From: Clostridia bacterium
GTDB lineage: Bacteria > Bacillota > Clostridia > Christensenellales > Aristaeellaceae
NCBI GenBank assembly: GCA_017526525.1
Contig: JAFXRG010000005.1
Location: forward strand, 34,944-98,943
Direction: 5' to 3'
DNA: 64,000 nucleotides
Below, one piece after another: positions 8,379-57,823 of this stretch. The translations under genes and the position numbers were made by a program. Positions within the stretch are counted from its first letter, which is position 1. Each line of letters starts with the position of its first letter. Below the pieces are notes generated by a model that was given only the letters and a program-made list of their open reading frames with translations, did no database searches and had not been told where the DNA came from.

Positions 8379-9335
8379 ATGAGCAAAAAAGAGAAAGCAG
8401 TGACCCTCCACATCCGCCGCAGCACGGGAGACTGGGTTTTCGACATCGCACTGATTGTTTTCTTCTGCGTTTTTACCTTTATCTGCATTTTCCCCTTCTA
8501 CTATCTGCTGATCAACACCATTTCCGATAACGATCTGGTCACCAGCGGACGGGTCAATTTCTATCCCCTGGTCCGGAACGCGGAGGGGCAGGCGGTTTTC
8601 GGAGCGCATTTCAGCAATTACACCGCCCTGCAGAACGTGCAGGACCTGGGAAGCAGCGTTATCGTGACCGTGTCCCGCACGATCCTGGGCACGGCGCTGA
8701 TGGTGCTGACATCCGCCTGGGCGGGGTACCTGGTGACCAAGCAGAAAATGTGGAAACGATCCTTCTGGTACCGTTTCCTGGTGGTAACGATGTATTTCAA
8801 CGCCGGCCTGGTTCCCTGGTACATGAACATGCTGATGATGGGCCTGACGGACAATTTCCTGGCCTACATCATCCCGGGCCTGGTGGCGCCGTACAATATT
8901 ATCCTGGTGAAGACATACATCGAATCCATTCCGGCCTCCCTGGAGGAAAGCGCGGTGATTGACGGTGCCTCCACGGTGACGGTGTGGCGGAAGATTATCC
9001 TGCCGCTGTCCATTCCGATCCTGGCGACGATTGCTATTTTCGGCGCTGTGGGAAACTGGAACTCCTTCCAGGACTCCCTGCTGCTGATGAACAACCGCCC
9101 GGACCTGTATACCCTGCAGCATCGGCTGTATATTTACCTGAATTCCTCCAGCAACCTGGGGGCCATGATGAGCCAGGGCGGAACCATCAGCGAGCAGGCC
9201 GCACAGAGCATGCTGAACCAGCGGGTAATCCAGTATACCGTTTCCATGGTCAGCATTATCCCGATTCTGCTGGTGTATCCGTTTATGCAGCGCTATTTTG
9301 TGAAAGGCATCATGCTCGGCGCGGTGAAGGGATAA
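8379..9335 (+). CDS. YtcP-type carbohydrate ABC transporter permease
   Basis: A 318-residue membrane protein of the second-permease type of CUT1 importers. There are six predicted membrane segments, the first being IALIVFFCVFTFICIFPFYYLL. The EAA-type loop reads LEESAVIDGASTVTVWRKI followed by ILPLSIPIL. It forms the channel with the permease at 6877. A GGGAGG ribosome site lies just before the ATG. Substrate specificity rests on the binding protein at 9372. Confidence 0.9.
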   Translation: MSKKEKAVTLHIRRSTGDWVFDIALIVFFCVFTFICIFPFYYLLINTISDNDLVTSGRVNFYPLVRNAEGQAVFGAHFSNYTALQNVQDLGSSVIVTVSRTILGTALMVLTSAWAGYLVTKQKMWKRSFWYRFLVVTMYFNAGLVPWYMNMLMMGLTDNFLAYIIPGLVAPYNIILVKTYIESIPASLEESAVIDGASTVTVWRKIILPLSIPILATIAIFGAVGNWNSFQDSLLLMNNRPDLYTLQHRLYIYLNSSSNLGAMMSQGGTISEQAAQSMLNQRVIQYTVSMVSIIPILLVYPFMQRYFVKGIMLGAVKG

Positions 9336-23497: not shown

Positions 23498-23527
23498 TTG
23501 ACAACCGGTTTTGAGGAGTGTTAGAAT
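23498..23527 (+). promoter_or_regulatory. Promoter of the T-box leader
   Basis: TTGACA (23498-23503), 18-base spacer, TAGAAT (23522-23527), directly upstream of the T-box leader. Confidence 0.7.
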
Positions 23528-23529
23528 AC

Positions 23530-23797
23530 GCGTAATTTCATACAAGGCGATGACGAAGACGGAACAGCAGGAGGTCCCACAGAGAGCCGGGAACGGTGTG
23601 AACCGGCGGACTGAAGCTTCATCCCATCACTTCCGAGCCGGAGATCCGAACGGTTCTGCTCAGTAGGCGTCTCCCGTGAATGCTGCGTGAATGCATAGGG
23701 CATGTCAGTGCCTGAAGAGGTGTGGAAAACACACAATTTGAGTGGTACCGCGAGTCATATGACCCGTCTCAAAGAAGAGACGGGTCATTTTTTTGAA
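23530..23797 (+). promoter_or_regulatory. T-box riboswitch, specifier probably AUC (Ile)
   Basis: The leader has the full T-box order. Stem I begins with GATGACGAAGA and carries the distal AGAGAGCCGG...GGTGTGAACCGG element. The 3' side reads CCC-ATC-ACTTCCGAGCC, where AUC is the best specifier candidate by analogy with the NNN-ACC-xxxGAGC pattern. The T-box sequence AGTGGTACCGCG lies at 23741-23752, and its TGGT would pair with ACCA, so the tRNA has discriminator A as tRNA-Ile does. A 12-bp terminator stem (23759-23770 with 23777-23788) and T7 end the leader. Uncharged tRNA should favour read-through into the ligase gene. Class certain, specifier tentative. Confidence 0.92.
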
Positions 23798-23809
23798 AGG
23801 AGAACCCCT

Positions 23810-26080
23810 ATGAATACTCAGACCGATCTCAGCCAGCTCAGCGCCATCGCATCCCGACTGAGGGAAATGCGGGAAATTATGGGCTGGACCGTGGAGGAAA
23901 TGGCGGCCAAAACGGAGGTTTCCGCGGAGGATTACCGGCTGTATGAAGCCGGCAGGACCGATATGCCCTTCACCTTCATTTACAAATCCGCCCAGGCCTT
24001 CAACATGGAACTGACGGAGCTGCTGGAAGGACACAACGCGTTCCTGTCTTCCTATACGGTTACCCGCCGCGGCAAGGGTGAATCCACCGCCCGGGAGGAA
24101 GGCATCGCCATTTCCAACCTGGCGCCCAAATTCCGGGACAAGATTGCGGAGCCCTACTGGGTCCGGTATGAATATTCCGAAAAACAGCAGCAGGAACCGA
24201 TTCACCTGACCACCCACCGGGGACAGGAGTTCGACCTGGTGCTGCAGGGAAGCCTGAAGGTGCAGGTGGGGGATCACACGGAAATCCTGCACGAAGGCGA
24301 CAGCATTTATTACAATTCCTCCCTGCCCCACGGCATGATCGCCGTGGAAGGAAAGGACTGCGTTTTCTGCGCGGTGGTGCTGCCCGGGGAAGGAACGCAG
24401 GTCGAAGAAGCTGCAACGGCCCAGCCGGTCCCGGCCCGGACGGAACAGCACCTGATTGCCGAAAAGTTTGTGGACGCCACGGAGGACGAACAGGGACGCC
24501 TGACCGCCATCCGGTTCCTGCATGAGGATACCTTCAATTTCGGCTTTGATATCGTGGATGAAATTGCCCGGAAATATCCGGACAAGCTGGCCATGCTCTA
24601 TGTGGATAAACACCATCAGGAACGCCGGTTTACCTTCAAGGATATCAAGGACGCCTCCAACCAGTGCGCCAACTACTTTACTTCCCTGGGCATCCGCCGG
24701 GGAGACCGGGTGATGCTGGTGCTGAAACGCCACTATCAGTTCTGGTTCTCCATGGTGGCGCTGCACAAGCTGGGAGCCATTGCCATTCCGGCCACCAACC
24801 AGCTGAAGGAACACGACTTTGAATACCGCTTCAAATCCGCCGGCGTGAAGGCCCTGATCTGCACGGCGGACGGGGATACGGCGGAGATTGCGGAGCGGGC
24901 CGCCGCCGGCTGCCCGACGGTGCAGACGCTGATCATGGTGAACGGAAACCGGGAAGGCTGGCACAGCTTCAATGATGAATATCCGCTGTTTACCCGCCGC
25001 TTCCATCGCCAGGAGGACAGTTCCTGCGGCAATGACATTGCCCTGATGTTCTTTACTTCCGGCACCACCGGCAACCCGAAGATGGCGGCCCACAAGCATA
25101 CCTACGCGCTGGGCCACTATGTGACGGCCAAGTACTGGCACTGCTGCGAGCGGGAAGGACTGCACCTGACCATCTCCGATACGGGATGGGGCAAGTCCCT
25201 GTGGGGCAAGCTTTACGGACAATGGATGTGCGAAGGCGCGGTGTTTGTTTATGACTTTGACAAGTTTGACGCCGCGGACATCCTGCCGATGTTCGCAAAG
25301 TATAACATTACAACCTTCTGCGCGCCGCCGACCATGCTGAGGATGCTGATCAAGGAAAACCTGGCCAACTATGACCTGTCCTCCATTCACCACATGACCA
25401 CCGCCGGCGAGGCGCTGAACCCGGAGGTGTTCCGGCAGTTTGAAAAAGCCACGGGACTGAAAATCATGGAAGGCTTCGGCCAGACGGAAACCACCCTTAC
25501 CATCGGCAACCTGTACGGAGGCGTTCCGAAGATCGGTTCCATGGGAAAGGCCAATCCCCAGTACAAGGTGGACATCGTGGATCCGGACGGAAATCCGGTG
25601 GCCAACGGCGAGGTTGGCGAAATCGTGATTCATACGGACGAGGAAACGCCCTGCGGCCTGTTCCGCGAATACTACCTGGATGGGGAAAAAACCGCGGATG
25701 CATGGCACGACGGCCTCTATCATACCGGAGATACGGCCTGGCGGGATGAGGACGGCTATTTCTGGTATGTGAGCCGGATTGACGACGTTATCAAGTCTTC
25801 CGGATACCGGATCGGGCCGTTCGAAATCGAAAGCGTCATCATGGAGCTGCCCTATGTGCTGGAGTGCGGCGTATCCGCCGAACCGGACGAGATCCGCGGA
25901 CAGATTGTGAAGGCTTCCATTGTGCTGACCAAGGGAACGGTGGGCACGGAGGAGCTGAAAAAGGAAATCCAGCAGTATGTCAAGCAGCATACCGCTCCCT
26001 ACAAGTATCCCCGGAAGATTGTTTTCCGGGACGAGCTTCCCAAAACCATTTCCGGCAAGATCCAGCGCAACCTGCTGTGA
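23810..26080 (+). CDS. HTH-cupin-acyl-CoA synthetase (AMP-forming) fusion protein
   Basis: A 756-residue protein. Residues about 15-70 form an XRE-type helix-turn-helix (MREIMGWTVEEMAAKTEVS), about 135-195 a cupin (GQEFDLVLQGSLKV, LHEGDSIYYNSSLPHG) and about 215-756 a complete acyl-CoA ligase. The ligase has FFTSGTTGNPK (about 414-425), EGFGQTETT, YHTGDTAW, the hinge region SRIDDVIKSSGYRIG and the C-terminal catalytic Lys in PKTISGKIQRN. It should convert a carboxylate, ATP and CoA to acyl-CoA. The T-box leader links expression to charging of one tRNA, and the convergent 2-oxoacid oxidoreductase suggests a branched-chain or aryl acid substrate. The HTH part may allow self-regulation. Confidence 0.9.
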   Translation: MNTQTDLSQLSAIASRLREMREIMGWTVEEMAAKTEVSAEDYRLYEAGRTDMPFTFIYKSAQAFNMELTELLEGHNAFLSSYTVTRRGKGESTAREEGIAISNLAPKFRDKIAEPYWVRYEYSEKQQQEPIHLTTHRGQEFDLVLQGSLKVQVGDHTEILHEGDSIYYNSSLPHGMIAVEGKDCVFCAVVLPGEGTQVEEAATAQPVPARTEQHLIAEKFVDATEDEQGRLTAIRFLHEDTFNFGFDIVDEIARKYPDKLAMLYVDKHHQERRFTFKDIKDASNQCANYFTSLGIRRGDRVMLVLKRHYQFWFSMVALHKLGAIAIPATNQLKEHDFEYRFKSAGVKALICTADGDTAEIAERAAAGCPTVQTLIMVNGNREGWHSFNDEYPLFTRRFHRQEDSSCGNDIALMFFTSGTTGNPKMAAHKHTYALGHYVTAKYWHCCEREGLHLTISDTGWGKSLWGKLYGQWMCEGAVFVYDFDKFDAADILPMFAKYNITTFCAPPTMLRMLIKENLANYDLSSIHHMTTAGEALNPEVFRQFEKATGLKIMEGFGQTETTLTIGNLYGGVPKIGSMGKANPQYKVDIVDPDGNPVANGEVGEIVIHTDEETPCGLFREYYLDGEKTADAWHDGLYHTGDTAWRDEDGYFWYVSRIDDVIKSSGYRIGPFEIESVIMELPYVLECGVSAEPDEIRGQIVKASIVLTKGTVGTEELKKEIQQYVKQHTAPYKYPRKIVFRDELPKTISGKIQRNLL

Positions 26081-26182: not shown

Positions 26183-26725
26183 TTACAGCCCGGCCACTGC
26201 CGCCTGTCCCTTTTCCATGGCCTGGCGGTTGATGGGAAGGAGATGCTCCTTCTTCGGGCCGAAGGTGGATTTCAGGGCTTCCATGGCGGAATCGATGGAG
26301 ACTACGCCGGTTTTCTGCAGGATGGCGCCCAGCATTACCATGTTGGCGGTGCGGGCATTGCCCAGCGCCTCGGCGATTCCGTTGCAGTCCACCGGGATGG
26401 CGGTAATGTCATCCCGGTCGGGTTTAATATCGATCAGGGAGGAGTTGTACAGCATGATGCCGCCCTTTTCCATTGCGGGGGTGAACTTGATCATGCTGGG
26501 CTTGTTCATGATCACGGCGATCGGGATTTCCGTCACCAGCGGAGAACCGATGGGCTCATCGGAAATGACCACGGCGCAGTTGGCTTCGCCGCCGCGCATT
26601 TCGGGACCGTAGGAAGGCATCCAGGAAACGTTCATGCCCTCGTGCATGGCTGCCTTGGCCAGCAGCTGTCCGATCAGCAGTACGCCCTGCCCGCCGAAAC
26701 CGGCAATCAGGAATTGAGCTTCCAT
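26183..26725 (-). CDS. 2-oxoacid:ferredoxin oxidoreductase gamma subunit
   Basis: A 180-residue subunit starting MEAQFLIAGFGGQGVLLIGQLLA, the standard opening of the gamma chain. SYGPEMRGGEANCAVVISDEPIGSP follows as expected. The gamma chain takes part in CoA and subunit contacts in the cytoplasmic enzyme that interconverts a 2-oxoacid plus CoA with acyl-CoA, CO2 and reduced ferredoxin. It is the last gene of a delta-alpha-beta-gamma operon, three bases after the beta gene, and a strong terminator follows. Confidence 0.92.
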   Translation of the reverse strand: MEAQFLIAGFGGQGVLLIGQLLAKAAMHEGMNVSWMPSYGPEMRGGEANCAVVISDEPIGSPLVTEIPIAVIMNKPSMIKFTPAMEKGGIMLYNSSLIDIKPDRDDITAIPVDCNGIAEALGNARTANMVMLGAILQKTGVVSIDSAMEALKSTFGPKKEHLLPINRQAMEKGQAAVAGL

Positions 26726-26728
26726 GGA

Positions 26729-27466
26729 TTACTCAACCTCCTTTTTCACGCCCAGAGGATACTGGGGAATCATATTTGCTTCCAGCCATTTCAGGGCTTC
26801 CTGCGGGGTCATGCCCCAGTTGGTGGGGCAGGCGGAAAGGACTTCCACCAGGGAGAAACCCTTCCGGTTGATCTGCATTTCGAAGGCTTTCCGGATGGCC
26901 TTTTTCGCTTCCATGATATGCTTGACATCGTGAACGGAGACCCGGGCAATATAGGCGGGGCCGTCCAGCGTGGACAGCATTTCACTGACGCGGATGGGAT
27001 AGCCGCAGAGGCTGGGATCCCGGCCGTAGGGGGAAGTCGTGGTCACCTGGCCCGGCAGGGTGGTGGGAGCCATCTGGCCGCCGGTCATGCCGTAAATGGC
27101 ATTGTTGACGAAAATCACGGTGATGTTTTCGCCCCGGGTGGCGGCGTGGGTGATTTCCGCGGCGCCGATGGAGGCCAGGTCGCCGTCGCCCTGGTAGGTG
27201 AAGACGATGTTGTTCGGATTGACCCGCTTGCAGCCGGTGGCTACGGCGGGAGCGCGGCCATGGGCGGCTTCCATCATGTCACAGTTGAAATAGTCATACG
27301 CGAAGACAGCGCAGCCGACCGGCGCGATGCCGATGGTTTTTTCCTGAATGCCGAGCTCATCAATGGCTTCAGCCACCAGGCGGTGGATAATGCCGTGGGT
27401 GCAGCCGGGACAGTAATGCAGGGGCTTGTCGGTCAGCAGCTTTGTTTTTTCATACACAACAGCCAT
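26729..27466 (-). CDS. 2-oxoacid:ferredoxin oxidoreductase beta subunit (TPP-binding)
   Basis: A 245-residue chain that holds thiamine diphosphate. It shows [13 protein letters not shown] near the N-terminus, the TPP/Mg motif [15 protein letters not shown] with the second half [15 protein letters not shown], and [12 protein letters not shown] near the end. The length and motifs match the Kor/Vor beta chain. It is translated directly after the alpha chain (2-base gap). The substrate cannot be told from this subunit alone. Confidence 0.93.
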
Positions 27467-27468
27467 GC

Positions 27469-28545
27469 TTATTTCCCCTCCTTTGCCAGCGTTTCGACCT
27501 GGGTGATGATTTCCCGCACGGTGGGCACAATGCCGCCGGTGCGGCCGAAGAAGTGAACGGGCTTTTTGCCTTCCACCGCCAGTTTCACATCATCCACCAT
27601 CTGGCCCATGCTCATTTCCACCGTCAGGAAAGCATTGGCGTGTTCGGCGGCTTTGGCAATCGGCGCCGCGGGGAAGGGCCACAGGGTGATCGGGCGGATC
27701 AGGCCGGCCCGGATGCCTTCTTCCCGGAGCTTGCGCATGGCGCTGCGGGCAATGCGGGCGGTGGTTCCGTAGGCTACGATGACATAATCGGCGTCTTCCG
27801 TCATTTCCTCCTGCCAGCGGCATTCGGTCTGCTCCATGACGGCGTATTTTTCATACAGGTGGTTGACATGCTTTTCCAGTACGGCGGGATCGATGTACAG
27901 GGAATTGATGACCGCCCGGTCCCTGCCGCAGCCGGGCTTCCAGCCGGTGGCAGCCCAGGTTTTGGGCGGCAGATCGGTCCGCTCTTTCCGCTCGGGCATT
28001 TCCACGGGCTCCATCATCTGGCCGATGAGGCCGTCCCCCATGATGAGCACGGGATTCCGGTATTTGTCCGCCAGGTCAAAGGCTTCCTGGGTCAGCTCCA
28101 CGGCTTCCTGCACGGAAGAAGGGGCCAGCACCAGCATCCGGTAGTCGCCGTGGCCGCCGCCGCGGGTGGACTGGTAATAGTCGCTCTGGGCGGGCTGGAT
28201 GGAACCGAGTCCGGGGCCGCCGCGTACCATGTTGACGATGACGCAGGGAAGCTCCGCACCGACAATATAGCTGATGCCTTCCTGCTTCAGGGAAATTCCC
28301 GGGCTGGAAGAAGAGGTCATGACCCGGGCGCCGGCACCGGCAGCACCGTAGACCATATTGATGGCGGCAACTTCGCTTTCCGCCTGCAGGAAACAGCCGC
28401 CCTCGATTTTCGGCAGCCGTTTGGACATGTATTCGGGAATCTGGTTCTGGGGGGTAATGGGGTAACCAAAGAAGAAGCGGCATCCGGCCTGGATGGCGGC
28501 TTCGGCGATGGCCTCATTTCCCTTCATGAGCATTTTCTGACCCAT
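27469..28545 (-). CDS. vorB: 2-oxoacid:ferredoxin oxidoreductase alpha subunit, VorB-type
   Basis: A 358-residue chain starting [40 protein letters not shown], split here only by reading. [31 protein letters not shown] and [20 protein letters not shown] follow. This resembles the chain usually annotated as 3-methyl-2-oxobutanoate dehydrogenase subunit VorB, rather than 2-oxoglutarate enzymes. With the beta, gamma and ferredoxin-like delta subunits it forms a cytoplasmic enzyme for branched-chain 2-oxoacids. In anaerobes it can run as a reductive carboxylase. Substrate assignment by resemblance is moderate. Confidence 0.88.
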
Positions 28546-28560
28546 GGATACGCTTCCTCC

Positions 28561-28764
28561 TTATTTTTCGACTTTAATGACAGCATCCGGGCACATCCGC
28601 GCACAGAAGGCACACCCGATGCACTGATCCTGCTGTTCAATCCCGATGGGATGATAACCTTTGGCGTTGATCTCCCGGCTGAGCGCCAGAAGGTGTTTGG
28701 GACAAACCTCGGCACACAGACCGCAGCCCTTGCAGGTCTCCCGGTCGATGGTCAGTCTGGCCAT
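28561..28764 (-). CDS. Ferredoxin-like delta subunit of the 2-oxoacid oxidoreductase
   Basis: A 67-residue protein with two 4Fe-4S motifs, CKGCGLCAEVCP and CIGCAFCARMCP. The start at 28764 (MARLTIDRE) is supported by AAAGGAGG about 9 bases upstream, and the longer frame would cross the promoter. It is the first gene of the operon and passes electrons between the TPP subunits and free ferredoxin. Confidence 0.92.
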   Translation of the reverse strand: MARLTIDRETCKGCGLCAEVCPKHLLALSREINAKGYHPIGIEQQDQCIGCAFCARMCPDAVIKVEK

Positions 28765-31789: not shown

Positions 31790-31915
31790 GAAGCTTCTTC
31801 GGGGATGGGTGAAATTCCCTACCGGCGGTGAAAGCCCGCGAACTGAGCTGAAAGCTCAGCCGATCCGGTGTTGATTCCGGAGCCGACAGTACAGTCTGGA
31901 TGAGAGAAGAAACGG
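31790..31915 (+). promoter_or_regulatory. FMN riboswitch (RFN element)
   Basis: The conserved RFN core is present: GGATGGGTGAAATTCCC, ACCGGCGGTGAAAGCCCGCG, the GATCCGGTGTTGATTCCGG arm, CCGACAGTACAGTCTGGATG and the closing GAGAGAAG that pairs with CTTCTTC. FMN binding should favour the terminator at 31953-31993 and shut off ribU. Confidence 0.95.
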
Positions 31916-32009: not shown

Positions 32010-32567
32010 ATGACTGCACGTGCAAAAAACAACACCCTTTTATCCACAGGAACCATGACCCGGATCGGGATTCTCGCCGCGGCAGGCGTCGCCCTGTCCA
32101 TGATTGAGATCGTGATCCTTCCGGGCGCGCCGTTCTACAGGCTGGATCCCAGCGGCCTGGCGGTGATGCTGGCCGGCTTCTCCATGGGTTTCCCGGCGGG
32201 CGTGATTACGCTGCTGATCAAGGACCTGGTGGGCCTGCTGGTGCATCCGGGCGGAGGCTGGGTCGGCCAGCTGGCGGACTTTATCGCCCTGTTTGCGTTC
32301 CTTGCCCCGGCAACGCTGGTTTACGCCCGGAAAAAGACGCGGATGACTGCGCTGATCGGGATGGTCATCGGCACTTTGGTGATGACCGGAGCGGCTGTGC
32401 TGGCTAACCTTTATATCCTGTTTCCGGCCTTCGGGATTCCGGACGGAGGCAAATACATTGTGCCCTTTACCGTGCCCTTCAACCTGATCAAAGGCGCGGC
32501 ACTGACCTTGATTACTTTCCTGATTTACAAGCCCCTGAGCCCCATTCTGCACGGACTCAGAAGGTAA
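32010..32567 (+). CDS. ribU: Riboflavin ECF transporter substrate-binding subunit
   Basis: A 185-residue membrane protein of the ECF S-component family. About six hydrophobic segments are seen, with the typical ILAAAGVALSMIEIVILPGAPFYRLDP opening given here only as positions about 12-38, and GLLVHPGGGWVGQLADFIA. The FMN riboswitch directly upstream identifies the substrate as riboflavin. It needs the EcfAA'T energising module, which is not in the window. GGGAGGAATTTCC precedes the ATG. Riboflavin supply would support the FMN-dependent Rnf proteins. Confidence 0.93.
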   Translation: MTARAKNNTLLSTGTMTRIGILAAAGVALSMIEIVILPGAPFYRLDPSGLAVMLAGFSMGFPAGVITLLIKDLVGLLVHPGGGWVGQLADFIALFAFLAPATLVYARKKTRMTALIGMVIGTLVMTGAAVLANLYILFPAFGIPDGGKYIVPFTVPFNLIKGAALTLITFLIYKPLSPILHGLRR

Positions 32568-47921: not shown

Positions 47922-47994
47922 GGGGCATTAGCACAGTTGGTAGCGCGCGACATTCGCATTGTCGAGGTCAGGGGTTCGACTCCCCTATGCTCCA
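47922..47994 (+). tRNA. tRNA-Ala (anticodon CGC)
   Basis: A complete 73-base cloverleaf. The acceptor GGGGCAT/ATGCTCC contains the G3-U70 pair that identifies tRNA-Ala. The anticodon loop TTCGCAT gives CGC, reading GCG. The T arm is AGGGG-TTCGACT-CCCCT and the discriminator is A. The D stem has one A-C mismatch. CCA is not encoded. Confidence 0.95.
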
Positions 47995-57750: not shown

Positions 57751-57823
57751 GGGGCATTAGCACAGATGGTAGCGCGCGACATTCGCATTGTCGAGGTCAG
57801 GGGTTCGACTCCCCTATGCTCCA
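57751..57823 (+). tRNA. tRNA-Ala (anticodon CGC), second copy
   Basis: Identical to the tRNA at 47922-47994 except for one D-loop base (AGATGG instead of AGTTGG). It keeps G3-U70, the CGC anticodon and the T arm. CCA is not encoded. Confidence 0.95.

Follow-up and report, generated by a model that had tools for sequence, protein, structure and literature searches.

The stretch of DNA analysed (the window) comprises 64,000 nucleotides of assembly GCA_017526525.1, contig JAFXRG010000005.1, positions 34,944 to 98,943 of the forward strand. On its plus strand a T-box leader lies in front of an acyl-CoA ligase gene. Based on reading of the sequence, a putative sigma-70-type promoter was identified at 23498..23527 (plus strand), consisting of TTGACA (23498-23503), an 18-base spacer and TAGAAT (23522-23527). 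The leader itself, from stem I to the antiterminator, was located at 23541..23774 (plus strand) using cmscan, which matched Rfam family RF00230 over the full length of the model (1-219) with 70.0 bits and an E value of 2.5e-15. Because this score falls under the Rfam gathering score of 93, no T-box was called in a default Rfam scan of the window, and a permissive search was needed. In the antiterminator (23737..23773, plus strand) UUUGAG at 23737-23742 pairs with CUCAAA at 23768-23773, a pairing which is kept in relatives, and the T-box bulge UGGU (23743-23746, plus strand) would bind the ACCA end of the tRNA. An intrinsic terminator, a hairpin with a 12-bp stem and a T-run, was recognized at 23759..23794 (plus strand) from the minimum-energy fold and the sequence; the hairpin and the antiterminator are mutually exclusive. 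The minimum free energy of the leader is mildly below that of shuffled sequences (z -1.8; 6 of 200 shuffles were equally good), and the T-box assignment is therefore founded on the covariance model and on the relatives. The full-length match, the UGGU bulge and the antiterminator/terminator pair confirm that this is a T-box of the transcriptional type, and a complete one, as had been claimed in the preliminary description.

The gene downstream (23810..26080, plus strand) encodes a 756-aa fusion protein, a predicted 2-methylbutyryl-CoA synthetase based on Pfam, NCBIfam and the solved structure 3etc. Its start is most likely the ATG at 23810, past the terminator; the list of open reading frames had it at 23702. 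Pfam domains were identified as an XRE helix-turn-helix (HTH) domain (residues 15-74), a cupin (128-189), an AMP-binding domain (250-622) and a C-terminal domain (672-750). Both ligase domains scored over the gathering score (PF00501, 230.8 bits; PF13193, 77.9 bits), and the AMP-forming acyl-CoA ligase expected behind the T-box is thus present. The fused XRE HTH and cupin domains are a feature absent from the preliminary description; this part weakly resembles 1y9q, a transcriptional regulator (E 0.0026). Among solved structures the ligase is closest to MacsMa of Methanosarcina acetivorans (3etc, 620 bits); from this relative and the specifier codon given below, 2-methylbutyrate is predicted as the substrate. 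Membership of the MbcS family (NF047394) was rejected, since this top NCBIfam match reached 446.7 bits, far under the cut-off of 850.

Downstream of the ligase and convergent to it, outside the T-box transcript, is a 2-oxoacid:ferredoxin oxidoreductase (VOR) operon on the minus strand. The gamma subunit (26183..26725) was identified by the Pfam POR domain and the beta subunit (26729..27466) by its Pfam TPP domain, both with NCBIfam matches below cut-offs; the beta subunit is 71-76% identical to 12 full-length matches in the ligase loci of relatives. The alpha subunit (27469..28545) is of the VorB type (NF005507, 565 bits vs a cut-off of 399) and is the lone match to that family in its own genome at E 1e-60. 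A small 4Fe-4S ferredoxin subunit with two CxxCxxC motifs (28561..28764, start placed by eye), resembling that of the related locus L039, belongs to the same operon.

Two further features of the window were recorded. An FMN riboswitch (111 bits, 31791-31915) stands just before the substrate component of an ECF transporter (32010-32567), which is probably a riboflavin transporter. Two near-identical tRNA genes (47922-47994 and 57751-57823), differing by one D-arm base, lie about 10 kb apart.

The specifier codon was determined to be AUC (isoleucine), at 23626..23628 (plus strand). The preliminary description had read the same codon, and the reading is now fixed by alignment to RF00230; the surrounding base pairs covary. 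Six T-boxes, the window one included, were found in the organism's own genome at E values up to 0.01, the assembly being 64% complete. By the same rule, applied by eye, UGG was read before trpE, ACC before thrS and UGG before a TrpX-like ABC operon (gene names, like that of the symporter below, were read from translations); the readings for trpE and thrS bear out the specifier-reading rule. A GUC (valine) T-box precedes a second ligase gene, a paralogue 61% identical to the first, on another contig. It is this paralogue and the genes linked to the ligases which indicate that an isoleucine specifier suits the ligase gene. The remaining T-box (L001, 1501-1742) has UAC (tyrosine, by eye) before an apparent sodium:solute symporter, and the codon suggests a tyrosine transporter.

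Homologs of the ligase are widespread. At E 1e-60 a match was obtained in 105 of 200 genomes of the order, several of them with tandem pairs. A total of 188 homologs with more than 400 aligned residues was collected from 141 loci, namely 60 regions of the order, 80 named loci and the window. This sample is non-random, the 60 regions having been chosen from the matches listed and the named loci being the best 80 of 592; many of these best 80 are labelled as ruminant-gut genomes. One contig is present twice (L050 and L145), and 186 of the 188 ligase proteins differ. A T-box core was located within 450 nt upstream of 148 homologs (147 distinct leaders), none was seen for 37, and 3 had no room for one. 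Of the 37 coreless genes, out of 185 with room, 15 are second genes of a tandem. In six tandems (L049, L050, L051, L052, L053 and L056) a second ligase with Ala at residue 461 and no T-box core of its own follows within 50 nt of an isoleucine-type ligase, and here one isoleucine T-box may control both genes.

The structure of the leader is conserved across these loci. In 169 of the 177 complete leaders every pair of the basal stem I helix can form, with compensatory changes of several pair types, and in the other 8 the pairing is incomplete; the outer stem I pairs are formed in 161 of 176 and the antiterminator pairing is kept in 159 of 175. The fourth base of the bulge, which the search motif had left free, is U in all 178 leaders. 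RF00230 was also matched by cmscan in 16 of 16 further loci of relatives, preselected for showing a T-box core, with 59-97.4 bits (4 of the 16 over the gathering score).

Specifiers were taken from the alignment, as the regular expression was one base off where a C follows the codon and blank for some leaders. The specifier column across the 148 leaders holds AUC 94 times, GUA 44 times, GUC 6 times and GUG twice. One leader (L125), misplaced by the alignment, was counted as AUC from its regular-expression match CATCCCTTCCGAGC, and another (L100) was unreadable and excluded, giving 95 AUC and 52 GUA, GUC or GUG among 147 readable leaders. That valine is specified here by any of three synonymous codons strongly supports the placement of the specifier. 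It might be argued that the true substrate is a different one, such as isovalerate or an aryl acid, the isoleucine T-box serving as no more than a general starvation signal; the substrates of these ligases are predictions, and relatives of the ligase fold accept many acids. Against this, the 147 readable leaders hold isoleucine or valine specifiers exclusively, with no leucine, phenylalanine, tyrosine or tryptophan specifier among them, which also gives no support to the aryl acids that the preliminary description had named among the acids to assay. A residue at a pocket position, moreover, changes along with the specifier, and we regard use of another acid as very unlikely.

That position is residue 461, encoded in the window at 25190..25192 (plus strand). 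It is Gly in 95 of 95 ligases behind AUC leaders and Ala in 52 of 52 behind GUN leaders (147 of 147; 146 distinct proteins), and it is the sole alignment column which fully separates the isoleucine from the valine ligases. In the alignment residue 461 corresponds to Val310 of E. coli ACS, presumably part of the acetate pocket, and MacsMa (3etc) carries Gly at this position. The paralogue in the organism's own genome (L064) has Ala461. The match between codon and residue was obeyed by all of 30 unused leaders (21 Gly/AUC and 9 Ala/GUN), most of them from the same order and partly non-independent. These leaders came from 52 loci, 5 of which had been taken from 29 loci of the phylum for showing a T-box core; the other matches in the 52 loci were 11 dropped as already used and 24 without a core, of which 13 lay at one end of the stretch, 10 were second tandem genes and one was L215, which had 1.5 kb of sequence upstream.

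Specifier and residue appear to have switched together several times, the number of switches varying with the tree. Three were counted on a FastTree phylogeny of 188 rows, and six on an IQ-TREE phylogeny of 52 hand-picked rows with residue 461 masked, where at least four are forced by the starred branches. In both trees a GUG copy (L047) and an AUC copy (L046) from one genome are sisters. Residue 461 alone implies no T-box, because coreless homologs also carry Gly or Ala: of the 41 rows for which no specifier was read, 21 have Gly and 20 have Ala, and 24 phylum loci without a T-box core have Ala, Leu or Met. Among the ligases without a core, those of L201-L206 have Leu at this position and perhaps take a shorter acid. 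Residue 461 probably sets or tunes the choice of substrate, with Gly for the C5 acid and Ala for the C4 acid. A bolder reading, which we put forward tentatively and hold to be rather doubtful, is that the tRNA-reading codon and a substrate-selecting residue form a matched pair, switched together repeatedly, so that the codon reads out the substrate, and that the fused XRE-cupin part may let the ligase sense and, by binding DNA, regulate the pathway in which it works, so that a single gene would be controlled at both the RNA and the protein level.

The genes linked to the ligases in relatives were surveyed in the 91 loci that extend 4.5 kb or more past the last ligase. In 39 of them the VOR alpha, beta and gamma genes follow the last ligase on its strand. 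All 31 two-ligase loci have this arrangement, 25 with an aminotransferase as well, and among one-ligase loci a downstream VOR was found in just 8 of 60. The order in L039 and L042, on one strand, is isoleucine-type ligase, valine-type ligase, aminotransferase, P-loop ATPase, ferredoxin (in L039), alpha, beta and gamma; the aminotransferase of L039 is a branched-chain aminotransferase (NF009897, 479.6 bits vs a cut-off of 307). No VOR was seen within the stretch fetched for the other loci of the same genus, L037 and L038 (isoleucine) and L059, L060, L061 and L064 (valine-type). By genome, one VorB match over the cut-off was present in each of 8 genomes of the genus and likewise in each of the 18 genomes tried, and a branched-chain aminotransferase also occurs in 8 of 8 and 18 of 18. 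VorB was matched in 4 of 14 control genomes, in 3 over the cut-off.

Two other genes of the L039 locus were noted. The small ParA/CbiA-like P-loop ATPase (8499-9164), encoded after the aminotransferase and before the ferredoxin subunit, has a same-strand relative downstream in 39 of the 91 loci. Upstream of the cluster (36-2159) is another AMP-forming ligase of 708 aa, with about 160 extra residues at its N-terminus.

The classical steps of branched-chain amino acid synthesis were searched for in the same genomes. Neither IlvC nor IlvD was matched in any of the 8 genomes of the window's genus, and since 7 of the 8 are 95-99% complete, an assembly gap is unlikely. IlvD was kept in 3 of the 18 genomes overall (G142, G735 and G040). 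Of 200 genomes of the order, 63 carried IlvC, and all 14 controls were positive. It was present in 6 of 52 hand-chosen genomes; of the 45 among these chosen for the ligase, 4 had it and 41 did not. Genomes with an HTH-cupin-ligase match (at least 56% identity) carried IlvC in 4 of 43 cases vs 59 of 157 for the rest (P 3e-4, kinship ignored), and the association with any ligase match was weak (27 of 105 vs 36 of 95, P 0.07). LeuA scored over the cut-off in 1 of 18 genomes, with weaker matches in the other 17. In L054 a LeuA with its regulatory domain is encoded close to the cluster, which could be why no ligase with a leucine T-box was seen.

VOR enzymes also work in the oxidative direction in fermenters, and the gene set could on that account be imagined to degrade branched-chain amino acids for energy. 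Yet a T-box turns genes on when an amino acid is short, and an AMP-forming ligase, which consumes ATP, would be ill suited to gaining energy. Together with the lack of IlvC in 41 of the 45 ligase-chosen genomes, this makes the degradative direction the least credible of the alternatives considered. A further proposal is that membrane fatty acids are primed with branched acyl-CoA made by the ligase, the T-box linking this supply to amino-acid status; it is suggested by the top NCBIfam match, MbcS, whose activation of 2-methylbutyrate and isobutyrate serves the synthesis of branched fatty acids (PMC10026030). Primer supply would leave several features unaccounted for: isoleucine and valine T-boxes couple expression to the charging of two tRNAs, separate C5 and C4 copies would be needless, the clusters of relatives hold VOR and a branched-chain aminotransferase, and the genus shows no IlvC or IlvD match. 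We consider it improbable, if less so than the other two.

Very probably, then, the isoleucine T-box controls a branched-acid ligase for isoleucine synthesis by reductive carboxylation, and the paralogue likewise leads from isobutyrate to valine. The T-box, the specifiers, the codon-residue match, the linkage in relatives and the lack of IlvC and IlvD matches in the genus were computed directly; we infer the substrates, the direction of the oxidoreductase, the response to tRNA and the roles of residue 461 and of the fused HTH-cupin part. When isoleucine is short, uncharged tRNA-Ile would pair with the AUC specifier and the UGGU bulge and stabilise the antiterminator, and the ligase gene would be transcribed. 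The ligase would turn 2-methylbutyrate into 2-methylbutyryl-CoA, a thioester which the VorB-type oxidoreductase would reductively carboxylate to 3-methyl-2-oxopentanoate, and the branched-chain aminotransferase would form isoleucine from the latter. Under the valine T-box the paralogue would feed isobutyrate into the same route, ending in valine. The idea that isoleucine shortage induces activation of 2-methylbutyrate for isoleucine synthesis, already put forward in the preliminary description, is supported by the AUC codon, the substrate preference of MacsMa, the valine paralogue, the linkage to VOR and aminotransferase genes and the missing IlvC and IlvD.

On this reading the amino acid that a ligase serves can be told from its T-box specifier, one residue goes with the specifier, and the substrates of such ligases would be predictable from sequence in many uncultured gut bacteria. 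An acid-activating ligase would join the T-box targets, and the system offers a simple and direct test of the joint change of one residue and one codon.

The usual targets of T-boxes are aminoacyl-tRNA synthetases, amino-acid synthesis and transport (PMC3766115). Control of an acyl-CoA ligase by a T-box was not found in the literature searched; the main texts of four T-box papers (PMC2494555, PMC7778990, PMC3766115 and PMC11477304) do not contain the term acyl-CoA, and an earlier mention is possible, as the surveys PMC2271356 and PMC2650889 were outside the search. The paired isoleucine and valine design with its codon-residue match looks new. Like other transcriptional T-boxes of RF00230, the window leader has a stem I with a specifier, a UGGN bulge and an antiterminator/terminator switch, and it differs in its target, an acyl-CoA ligase. 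MacsMa, the closest solved relative of the ligase part, has Gly at 461 and prefers 2-methylbutyrate (PMC10455477), but it is archaeal, and its matched chain has 580 residues compared with the 756 found here with HTH and cupin. MbcS of Staphylococcus aureus selectively activates 2-methylbutyrate and isobutyrate (PMC10026030); there one enzyme serves both acids and feeds membrane lipids, whereas here there are two ligases. In the rumen, isoleucine is made from 2-methylbutyrate and valine from isobutyrate (PMC7356843, citing Robinson and Allison 1969; Allison and Peel 1971), and isoleucine formation from 2-methylbutyrate is described for a rumen methanogen (PMC2812497). The acids and products of this rumen-anaerobe pathway are the same as those proposed for the window, to which the present analysis would add the ligase genes and their control by T-boxes.
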